64,000 nucleotides of DNA from Olsenella massiliensis (GTDB lineage: Bacteria > Actinomycetota > Coriobacteriia > Coriobacteriales > Atopobiaceae), in assembly GCF_001457795.1 (NCBI RefSeq), contig NZ_LN898211.1, forward strand, positions 764,979 through 828,978, written 5' to 3'. The notes beneath the pieces were generated by a model that saw only the letters and a program-made list of their open reading frames with translations, did not search any database and was not told the DNA's origin. Every line of letters begins with the position of its first letter. Position 1 is the stretch's first letter. Shown here in pieces: positions 72 to 59,233 of this stretch. The position numbers were made by a program, and so were the translations under genes.

Positions 72-368
72 CCCATAGGTCTGCGGGCCCCGCGCGCGGG
101 CTCCTACCGGTTCCTATAGGCTCGCGGACGACGCGCACGGATTCCAATAGGTTTGCGGATGTAGTGCGCGGGTTCCTATAAGTTTGAGGACCTCTCCCGT
201 GCAGAGCTATAGGTTTGAGGAAAAAGGGGAATTCCTACCTGGGCAAACGCCGCGACGATTCCTCAAACCCATAGGTCTGTCTCCTCCGGCCTCTCAAACC
301 TATAGGCGCGTGGCGACGCCGCCCTCAAACGTATAGGTGCGCGGCGCCGCCGCCCTCAGGCCCAGAAG
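72..368. repeat. Palindromic repeat array A: phased 15-bp repeats around a 40-bp core
   Basis: Left-arm copies of a 15-mer close to CCTATAGGTTTGAGG start at 72, 113, 144, 175 and 206. Right-arm copies in the reverse orientation (CCTCAAACSTATAGG) start at 261, 292 and 323, with a decayed copy at 354. Spacing is 31 bp except one 41-bp step. Between the arms lies a 40-bp core (221-260) containing TTCCTACCTGGGCAAA. The stretch from about 26, including the flank left of the first repeat, is closely similar to array B near 35,962. No ORF here looks coding. The array lies downstream of pth, which ends at 458 on the minus strand. Function unknown. Confidence 0.9.
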
Positions 369-35802: not shown

Positions 35803-36007
35803 GGAAAGTCCTTTCGTCACGACGTCGGACCTTATGGTACCCCATGCGCTGGTGCGTCCGTGTGGCACCGGACCTTCTAGCCGCCACCTGCCAGGGCGTC
35901 GCCTGCGCCTGGCGGCGACGGATGGGGAGGCCTTCGGGGAGGCCCCCGCGCGTCGCGAGCCGCCCGGGCCTGCGGCGGGGGTCTCCGGCCTGGAGTCGGG
36001 GGGCATT

Positions 36008-36407
36008 CCCATAGGTCTGCGGGCGCCGCGCGCCGGTTCCTACCGGTTCCTATAGGCTCGCGGACGACACGCACGGATTCCTATAGGTTCCTATAGGCTC
36101 GCGGACGACACGCACGGATTCCTATAAGTTTGAGGGCCCCGCGCGCGAATTCCTATAGGTTTGAGGGCCTCTCCCGTGCAGAGCTATAGGTTTGAGGAAA
36201 AAGGGGAATTCCTACCTGGGCAAACGCCGTGGTGATTCCTCAAACCTATAGGTCTGTCTCCTTCGACCTCTCAAACCTATAGGTGCGCGGCGACGCTGCC
36301 CTCAAACCTATAGGTGCGTGGCGGCACCGCCCTCAAACGTATAGGTGTGGCAGGTCGCGGGCCTCAAACCTCTAGGCGCGGCACGCCGTGGCACTCAAAC
36401 GTATAGG
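36008..36407. repeat. Palindromic repeat array B: fullest copy, six repeats per arm
   Basis: Left-arm 15-mers start at 36008, 36049, 36090, 36121, 36152 and 36183 (steps 41, 41, 31, 31, 31). Right-arm inverted 15-mers start at 36238, 36269, 36300, 36331, 36362 and 36393 (all steps 31). The 40-bp core, 36198-36237, contains TTCCTACCTGGGCAAA. An extra CCTATAGG at 36080 lies just before the copy at 36090. Repeats are near perfect around the core and decay outward. The last right repeat ends 15 bp from the stop codon of the minus-strand PASTA gene. No coding potential. Confidence 0.95.
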
Positions 36408-36422
36408 TGCGGCAGGTCGCGG

Positions 36423-37640
36423 CTAGCGGGTTGCGACGGCCCTGATGGTGACCGTCGCGTCCTGCGCGACGGGCGAGCCCACGCCGGGGTTGACCTCCTG
36501 CACGGTCCCCGCCGCCCCCACGGCGTCATACAGCTCCGGGCCATTCACGACGGACAGGCCCATGCCTTCAAGGAGGATCGTGGCGTCGGCCAGGGGCATG
36601 CCTATGACGTCGGGAACCGTGACGGCCGCGCCGTTCGTGTCGCCCGTGGCGATCCTGCCTTCGGACACCACCAGGTCAACCTTGGTGCCCTTGGTCTTCT
36701 GGGTGCCTGCGGCGGGGCCTTGGGCGATGACCCTGCCCTGCTCGACGCTGTCGGACTGGGCGTAGGTCACGTCGTCCTTCACGAACCAGGTCGTCCCCGC
36801 GATCTGGGCGAGGGCGTCATCCAGGGTCATGCCCCTGAGGTCGGGAACCGCCTGGGTCTGGTTGGCCCCCCTGCCCACCTTGAGCGTGACGGTGGCGCCG
36901 ACGGGGACATGTGAGTCGGCGGCGGGTGTGGTGGCGATGACCCTGCCCTCGTCCTCCTGGGCCTGGGTCTGCTGCTCCTCGATGTTGACCTTGTAGCCGC
37001 GAGCCTCAAGGTCCGCCCGAGCGTCGTCGGCGCCCTCGCCGACGACGTTGACGAGCCGTGTGCCCGCGAACAGGCCAAAGCAGCTGGTGAGAATCGTCGT
37101 CGAGGCGATGGTGGCAAGAACTGCGGCGACGCAGATGATGAGGAGCCAGGGCGGAATCCGTGAGAGGGGAGATGCCATGGCGTCCAGATGACCCGCCACG
37201 CCGCCCAGGGAAGGAACGACGGGCACCTGGATGTCAGCCGCCTTGAAAGCGCCCACCTCTCCCGTGACGTCCTCGGTCGCGGGCGTCTGCGCGGCGCGCA
37301 TCCGGCTGCCGTCATCGAGGTCGCAGGCGTCATAGGGGAGACGCTCGCCATCTAGCGCGCAGGCATCGTAGGGGAGACGCTCGCCATCCAGCGCGCAGGC
37401 GTCATAGGCGCTCGGAGACGACGCGGAAGCCGCCGCTGCGTCGGTGGGCGCTGACTGCTCATGGGAGACGTCAGGCAGCGTGGCGTCCGAGGGAAAGGAT
37501 GCGTCGGCGTCGCGCTCGGGTGCCTCGTCGGACAGAGGCGCGTCGGTGGTGCGTGCGCTCGTCATGTCGAAGGACGGCACGGGTGAAGACAGATGGCGCG
37601 GCCGGGGCCTCTCTTCGCTGTCAGCTGGGTCTTTGGCCAC
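36423..37640 (-). CDS. Membrane-anchored PASTA-domain protein
   Basis: 405 residues. Cytoplasmic, acidic N-terminus with a 12-residue repeat (YDACALDGERLP twice plus a variant) encoded by a 36-bp tandem repeat at 37324-37408. One membrane helix follows (IPPWLLIICVAAVLATIAS), then three PASTA-like extracellular repeats beginning VNVVGEGADDARADLEARGY, VPDLRGMTLDDALAQI and VPDVIGMPLADATILLEGM. PASTA domains bind peptidoglycan; there is no kinase or transpeptidase domain, so it may be a wall sensor or scaffold. Start is GTG with GAGAGGA upstream. Confidence 0.85.
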   Translation of the reverse strand: MAKDPADSEERPRPRHLSSPVPSFDMTSARTTDAPLSDEAPERDADASFPSDATLPDVSHEQSAPTDAAAASASSPSAYDACALDGERLPYDACALDGERLPYDACDLDDGSRMRAAQTPATEDVTGEVGAFKAADIQVPVVPSLGGVAGHLDAMASPLSRIPPWLLIICVAAVLATIASTTILTSCFGLFAGTRLVNVVGEGADDARADLEARGYKVNIEEQQTQAQEDEGRVIATTPAADSHVPVGATVTLKVGRGANQTQAVPDLRGMTLDDALAQIAGTTWFVKDDVTYAQSDSVEQGRVIAQGPAAGTQKTKGTKVDLVVSEGRIATGDTNGAAVTVPDVIGMPLADATILLEGMGLSVVNGPELYDAVGAAGTVQEVNPGVGSPVAQDATVTIRAVATR

Positions 37641-58915: not shown

Positions 58916-59233
58916 GCTATTGGTTTGAGAGTGGCGGCAGTGCACGCCTATACGTTTGAGAGTTCTCGGGCCACTCTCCTATACGTTTGAGAGTCGCTGG
59001 ACCTCACACCTATACGTTTGAGAGCTCTCGGGCCACTCTCCTATACGTTTGAGAGCGCCTGGTCGATACAGTTATAAGTTTGCGAAATTGACGCTGCATT
59101 TGCCCAGGTAAGAATCGCCTTTTATTCTCAAACTTATTAGTATTCTCCCGATCCATCCTCAAACGTATTGGAACTCGTCGGACGTGCTCTCAAACGTATT
59201 GGAACTCGACGGACGTGCTCTTAAACGTATTGG
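58916..59233. repeat. Palindromic repeat array C, divergent and inverted relative to A and B
   Basis: Left-arm 15-mers (CCTATACGTTTGAGA type) start at 58916, 58947, 58978, 59009, 59040 and 59071; right-arm inverted copies start at 59126, 59157, 59188 and 59219. Every step is 31 bp. The core 59086-59125 is exactly 40 bp and contains TTTGCCCAGGTAAGAA, the reverse complement of the A/B core motif; by eye 31 of 40 positions match after reversal. Repeat sequence has drifted (ACG for AGG, GAGA for GAGG) but identically in both arms. Spacers CTCGGGCCACTCT and AACTCGTCGGACGTGC are themselves reused. Fills most of the 680-bp gap 58831-59512. Confidence 0.95.

Follow-up and report, generated by a model that had tools for sequence, protein, structure and literature searches.

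Repeat arrays in the window

The window, a 64,000-nucleotide stretch of the Olsenella massiliensis genome, carries three inverted repeat arrays, here called A, B, and C. Array C (58917..59232) lies between a HAD-type hydrolase gene on one side and a Fur-family gene on the other (Pfam) and consists of repeats at 31-bp steps on either side of a 12-bp core, TACCTGGGCAAA, placed on the minus strand at 59099..59110 by a 12-mer search and by per-position conservation. One arm (58917..59086, plus strand) has five clear units, which start 31 bp apart at 58917, 58948, 58979, 59010, and 59041, plus a degenerate unit nearer the core at 59074-59086. The other arm (59125..59232, minus strand) has inverted units at 59156-59170, 59187-59201, and 59218-59232, again at 31-bp steps, with more degenerate units toward the core, the innermost included.

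Array A (115..336) precedes a peptidyl-tRNA hydrolase gene, and array B (36051..36406) has a LOG-type gene on one side and a PASTA-domain gene on the other. Both belong to one subfamily of copies (subfamily A), were located by repeat search with neighbors assigned by Pfam, and carry the exact TACCTGGGCAAA core on the plus strand (236..247 and 36213..36224, respectively). In a search of the window tolerating one mismatch, the exact core occurred three times, at 236 (+), 36213 (+), and 59099 (-), compared with 0.04 expected from shuffled sequences, and the repeat CTATACGTTTGAGAG with up to three mismatches was matched 21 times, compared with 0.41 expected.

An earlier, sequence-only reading described array C as a diverged copy in reverse orientation that has kept its core, and the analysis confirms this. 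Arrays A and C are also related by blastn (72% over 201 bp; E value of 2e-19). The estimate by eye of about 31 identities in an ungapped 40-bp alignment is accurate for core-oriented array A (30 to 31 of 40, depending on the frame) and slightly high for array B (28 to 30 of 40, likewise frame dependent).

The window starts directly after an N. Its bases 1 to 25 resemble Nextera/Tn5 mosaic ends, as does a matching sequence some 350 bp upstream in the contig, and the stretch between the two is therefore probably a sequencing or assembly chimera within the leader of array A.

Arrays of the source genome and conservation of the core

The genome from which the window comes (G000; 1.82 Mb in 13 contigs) has 13 arrays in all, nine with the exact core and four with a one-base variant (CACCTGGGCAAA in two and TACCTGGGAAAA in two). 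They share a single geometry, in which 18 bases separate GTTTG from the 12-base core and 16 bases separate the core from CAAAC, with outer units mostly every 31 bp. Eight are close copies forming a subfamily (74 to 97% identical over 136 bp) and are near-duplicates with common flanks. The five others, including array C, are 52 to 69% identical to any other copy and keep the core and repeats, while their spacers have drifted.

When all 13 copies were compared after orientation by the core, the peak of conservation fell exactly on the core. Among seven representatives, C included, the core ranked first of all 12-bp windows, and mean pairwise identity was 0.98 for the core, 0.81 for the repeats, 0.54 beside the core, and 0.46 for the spacers. 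The cores are thus far better kept than the spacers. The view that flanking repeats and spacers alike have changed considerably applies chiefly to the spacers, which have changed most, whereas the repeat units remain similar.

All 13 arrays are intergenic according to a heuristic gene call, lying between convergent (five) or tandem (eight) but never divergent gene pairs. The scanned neighbors are ordinary genes, with none common to the arrays, and no consistent orientation relative to genes or replication was found. The arrays are not parS sites: the canonical parS sequence has two exact matches near dnaA (contig C13, 372 kb), far from the arrays, which are absent from about 255 kb before to about 199 kb after dnaA on that contig.

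Two individual sites deserve mention. On C13, at ~87.8 to 92.9 kb (L051, 9800 to 15000), two identically oriented arrays stand on either side of a gene for a 1,466-residue, Cna_B domain-containing product, likely a surface protein. At L050 (10374 to 10865), an array precedes a histidine phosphatase-like gene (Pfam); an element consisting of the same core and one pair of arms was seen by eye around position 1000 of L298 and L300, from G038 and G039, before the start of a histidine phosphatase-like gene, and this is perhaps an old common site with replaced repeats.

Four copies of subfamily A begin abruptly at CTAG, and their next 30 bp or so are alike; three copies end at CTAG and one ends at CTGG. 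CTAG stands at both ends of two of the 13 copies (C11_74501 and C13_801169) and at one end of some other subfamily A copies. C13_801169 is array B, in which the CTAG-bounded stretch (35877..36426, plus strand) may mark the limits of a mobile unit. Such ends would suit MITE-like elements moved by an unrelated CTAG-targeting transposase, with an accidental association with the gene described below. This explanation is improbable, as CTAG ends were recognized neither in the five diverged copies nor in other species and the middle of the element, not its ends, is conserved. When the whole of element B was used as a DNA query against the genome, the matches were the 13 arrays and a single 23-bp stretch, with no parent transposon. 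In each of four species, the repeats adjoin one type of gene.

Same plan with different repeats in relatives

Array C is one member of a family of intergenic elements scattered in a group of Coriobacteriia. The inverted-array plan, in which an identical or related core is combined with unrelated repeats, is found in twelve genomes of five genera (G000, G040, G031, G043, G114, G115, G118, G119, G121, G005, G038, and G039). Arrays outside the source genome came to light through a sequence-independent scan, which sought direct repeats, whatever their period, that have inverted counterparts close by and which in a control recovered arrays in 11 of 12 stretches of the source genome (L055 was missed). 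In two congeners scanned over 200 kb each, arrays were present in three of 10 stretches of G040 (period, 31 bp) and five of 10 stretches of G039 (periods, 20 to 22 bp). Their repeats, CAGAATGCGCTTTTCCGTGAG and CGTGTGGGTGC, respectively, do not resemble those of the window. The core of G040 is identical to that of the window (ACCTGGGCAAACG), and that of G039 is related (ACCTGGGATTTTGTCG), with a further variant in some arrays.

The complete G040 genome contains 58 exact copies of CCTGGGCAAACG, compared with one for the reversed pattern. Inner repeats stand on both sides of 56 of the 58 cores, with a second right unit 31 bp further out in 53 and a second left unit in 51. Thirteen clusters consist of two or three cores, 217 to 372 bp apart and always in a shared orientation. 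With 27 cores forward and 31 reverse, a signal of replication direction was rejected.

The same core is combined with yet other arms in G031, G043, G114, G115, G118, G119, G121, G005 (related core), G038, and G039. Genomes of the g34 group have at least two arm types around the same core, and some genomes (g34 and G005) have a single pair of arms. Beside the arrays of L312 and L314 (g34 genomes), an extra inverted pair, AAAAGTGAACACGTTTTCAAT around CCCTGGGGAAACGTC, was seen by eye and may represent a third type of arm, with a variant core. G040 also has unrelated palindromes with a period of 41 to 54 bp, recovered by the sequence-independent scan. Another palindromic repeat of G040, with AGTGTACAC ends, a period near 50 to 54 or 100 bp, and no ACCTGGG core, occurs at L214:18160, L215:11580, and L216:4290.

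Most genomes of the family had no array in the material examined; sampling by stretches covered only a few genomes. Five 20-kb stretches from each of four genomes of other genera (G020, G023, G028, and G059) contained arrays in none of 20 cases, with a few short repeat matches in four of the stretches counted as coding. In G028 (L293, around 970 to 1000), two tandem copies of TTTACCTGGGCATTCGCGC without arms were seen by eye next to a probable tRNA gene.

An exact search for the whole motif, which matched one of 140 family genomes and seven of the 13 arrays of the source genome itself, had first suggested an element of one species. This was wrong because the repeats differ between species; with no conserved piece longer than about 12 to 16 bp, families of this kind escape exact searches. 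A repeat-pair search gave 45 matches in the source genome and single matches in G031 and G041 that were taken as chance. A profile of the 13 copies matched six of 396 class genomes, five of them only at E values of 0.003 to 0.005; it was a poor control, with only eight candidates per genome scored, eight of 13 own arrays recovered, and G040 missed.

The core pattern ACCTGGGMWWWYG has at least one match in 128 of 140 family genomes, mostly few per genome, and far exceeds its reversed control in G040 (62 versus 2), G048 (22 versus 1), G116 (14 versus 0), and the source genome (16 versus 1). Among 30 loci read, one per genome, clear arrays were present only at L258 and L282. Twenty further stretches showed arms in six (L284, L285, L288, L298, L299, and L300), L288 being the same place as L258. 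The pattern TACCTGGGCAAACGNC gave 34 matches in 16 of 396 genomes, compared with four for the reversed pattern. Inverted arms were seen at 17 of 25 loci read, five loci of the source genome being excluded, and were absent from L304, L305, L310, L313, L317, L318, L319, and L326.

Pattern scans of genome contigs (at least 113 stretches) and viral contigs (12) revealed nothing array-like among 125 loci checked, and a DNA search of plasmids and phages with array B gave no match. A phage origin was rejected, with no viral locus confirmed and no PHROG match. Literature searches, to which subscription papers and preprints were outside the scope, yielded no paper on AbiEi in Coriobacteria and no description of such arrays.

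Unit spacing

Steps between units are mostly 20 to 21, 30 to 31, 41 to 42, and 62 bp, or about two, three, four, and six helical turns, and remain constant while spacer sequences vary. The source genome has steps of 31 bp (48 intervals), 41 bp (5), 62 bp (5), 30 bp (2), and 93 bp (1), and G040 has steps of 31 bp (169), 17 bp (47), 30 bp (13), 42 bp (4), and a few others. The 17-bp step adjoins the core and is not a whole number of turns. Steps in G039 are 20 bp (14 intervals), 21 bp (4), and a few others; those in G043 are 30 to 31 and 42 bp, and those in G031 are 31 and 41 bp.

The arms are inverted repeats, with a single pair in g34 and G005, and could belong to a family of structured RNAs or DNA hairpins in which only arm pairing matters. 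This is very improbable. Covariation between the inner arms of the two sides was not significant in either G040 (7 matching changes observed, 5.8 expected; P = 0.34) or the source genome (6 observed, 3.0 expected; P = 0.09). No known Rfam RNA was found above the cutoff in the four of 13 arrays submitted, the one match (E value of 0.96) being under the gathering score. Fixed steps with unconserved spacers also suit a bound protein better. The whole-turn steps and the lack of significant covariation therefore point to protein molecules arranged along a single face of the DNA helix rather than to an RNA stem.

Candidate gene beside the arrays

Comparison across species of all predicted proteins near arrays gave one cluster, with members in G000, G040, and G039 that are 42 to 46% identical. 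A homologue in Collinsella aerofaciens (NZ_OY725717.1) was found independently, by a protein search of plasmid records, and its repeats were noticed only afterwards; this record is filed as a plasmid but carries recA, lexA, and scpAB. The four proteins are 338 to 375 residues long, and the other three are 45, 42, and 34% identical to that of G040. The link between gene and arrays thus rests on four species, three selected by neighbor comparison and one independent.

Repeats occur on both sides of the gene in three of the four species. The exception is the source genome, where the gene is outside the window (contig C9, about 19.36 to 20.48 kb): array C9_20779 adjoins it on the 5' side, 228 bp from the start codon, and no repeats were found in the approximately 1 kb scanned past the 3' end. 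The G040 gene lies amid arrays (cores at 2657, 2998, and 4620 of L364), and the G039 gene has an array on each side, the 5' array spanning the border of two adjoining stretches.

The Collinsella gene is flanked by units of the form GTCTCGATCTGTAAC-27 bp-GTTACAGATCGAGAC, two to one side of it and four to the opposite side. The four 50-kb stretches sampled contain 13 units, all intergenic; every one falls at 402.7 to 421.3 kb, within 18.5 kb around the gene, and the remaining 150 kb has none. The whole record has at least 29 unit places, and others thus lie outside the sampled stretches. The middle between the arms is only loosely conserved and has no ACCTGGG core; the strict core is therefore a feature of the window's own family and not of every relative.

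Neighbors of the gene include PTS_IIB and UvrB in the source genome, UDG, alanine racemase, and unassigned open reading frames in G040, and a protein unassigned by Pfam and an amidohydrolase (record annotation) in Collinsella. No toxin domain was present among the neighbors scanned in these three genomes. No homologue of the candidate was found in 15 stretches (7 to 20 kb) around arrays of G031, g34, G043, and G005.

Candidate protein

The front half of the candidate protein is AbiEi-like, and its back half resembles the DUF559 nuclease family. PADLOC AbiEi models match the three proteins from the window's genus (best E values of 8e-8, 6e-7, and 2e-6), with no PADLOC match for the Collinsella protein. 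Pfam AbiEi_4 scores 22.3 bits, below the cutoff of 25, in one of the three; the other two have no Pfam match, and none of the three has an NCBIfam match. DUF559 scores 15.0 bits in the Collinsella protein (cutoff, 20.6) and was not found by Pfam in the other three. The profile of the four proteins nevertheless aligns with a Tsukamurella protein (hhalign probability, 98%; E value of 2.6e-13), the alignment including the back half. That protein passes the DUF559 cutoff (23.8 bits) and weakly matches a restriction nuclease family and AbiEi_1.

Two structure models had low overall confidence (mean pLDDT, 41.0 and 41.9). In the model compared with solved structures, only residues 11 to 87, which form a winged helix, are confident; the nuclease-like half lies outside this part. 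Solved AbiEi (6y8q) matches the winged helix at a Z score of 4.9, among several winged helices at about 5 in a VIA-align list from which Rv2827c is absent. Foldseek gave no match at an E value of 0.001 or better, and a profile search of solved structures found no useful relative. The Collinsella protein has no PHROG match, and one phage record matches 27% of it.

D252, E266, and K272 are invariant in all four proteins, and D268 is conserved in three. The protein of the source genome reads GELGGWGKY, with G at the second acidic position, where the others have D268, and its nuclease-like half may therefore be altered. D252, E266, D268, and K272 are candidate acidic and lysine residues of a PD-(D/E)XK/DUF559 active site.

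Proposed function

The sequence-only reading proposed the asymmetric core as the functional site, with the repeats recruiting or positioning something around it. The peak of conservation at the core supports this, and other species keep the core with entirely different repeats, as the proposal predicts. Our best explanation as a whole, with a probability of about 0.5, is that a repeat-bound AbiEi-like/DUF559-like protein acts over the core. The repeats on either side would be binding sites for the protein encoded beside an array, and the protein probably does bind them. Protomers would align on one DNA face along each arm, because the units sit whole helical turns apart. The two repeat rows would face each other, and the nuclease-like halves would meet over the off-center core, comparable to two TALE nuclease halves over a spacer.

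More tentatively, the protein may nick or cut the core, and repair or copying would then spread the arrays and make them uniform, with repeats and protein changing jointly and the core kept. Core cutting that drives copying and renewal would explain why the core is retained even as every copy in a genome has its repeats replaced. A more doubtful extension is a natural paired nuclease: a changeable AbiEi-like domain would bring a DUF559-like domain to inverted, helically phased repeats to act at the core, and one gene would drive the spread and renewal of its own dispersed sites without a known transposase.

The arrays could alternatively be control or architecture sites for the same type of protein, which would only bind, its nuclease-like half dimerizing, with the sites under selection and nothing cut. 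The five diverged copies of the source genome, which retain core and repeats despite spacer drift, behave as selected sites would, and the intergenic position of all 13 arrays without a shared neighbor, the changed second acidic motif in this genome's protein, and the reported role of AbiEi relatives as repressors (PMC7319586) are also in keeping with binding alone. However, the repeats differ wholly between species while the plan is kept, the eight near-duplicates with shared flanks suggest spreading, and orientation to genes or replication is inconsistent; we regard binding alone as unlikely.

Comparison with known systems

Type IV toxin-antitoxin systems offer the closest precedent for the proposed binding. 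AbiEi of Streptococcus agalactiae is reported to bend DNA and to bind a pair of 23-bp inverted repeats separated by 3 bp, and Rv2827c of Mycobacterium tuberculosis to bind four 23-bp inverted repeats with 13-bp gaps within pairs (PMC7319586). Both are of the winged-helix family to which the candidate's front half is compared, and neither binds the other's repeats (PMC7319586). Unlike these systems, the candidate has a DUF559-like back half and no nucleotidyltransferase toxin gene among its tested neighbors, and the repeats are dispersed genome-wide in long rows around a core. DUF559 proteins are described as Vsr-like nucleases that can be genotoxic, Caulobacter VsrA triggering the SOS response without a methyltransferase (PMC12907096). 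The candidate's back half shares with them the profile alignment to the Tsukamurella DUF559 protein; unlike them, this putative nuclease half is joined to a front half of AbiEi type, and the protein is encoded next to arrays. A minisatellite-bearing MITE of Porphyromonas gingivalis also has tandem repeats within a dispersed element but, as far as its description goes, apparently lacks inverted arms around a conserved core and a partner gene (PMC4596501).

REPIN-RAYT (TnpA_REP) systems are reported as dispersed, intergenic, and lineage specific, as are the arrays. RAYT genes are flanked by REPs, and the candidate is likewise a partner gene flanked by repeats, on one side only in the source genome, with a single such gene found so far per genome. 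In contrast, the candidate proteins have no Y1 (HUH) transposase domain (Pfam), the arrays lack the REP-type GTAG signature, and they have many phased units per side and a central asymmetric core. If the proposed function is correct, AbiEi-type DNA binders, best known as antitoxins, would be linked to genome-wide families of sites, and engineered paired nucleases would have a natural counterpart. The idea is testable, as each species supplies a protein with its own repeats and specificities can be exchanged between species. These bacteria would then fill the role of REPIN/RAYT by a second solution, in which a vertically inherited gene and its population of short dispersed sites change in concert.
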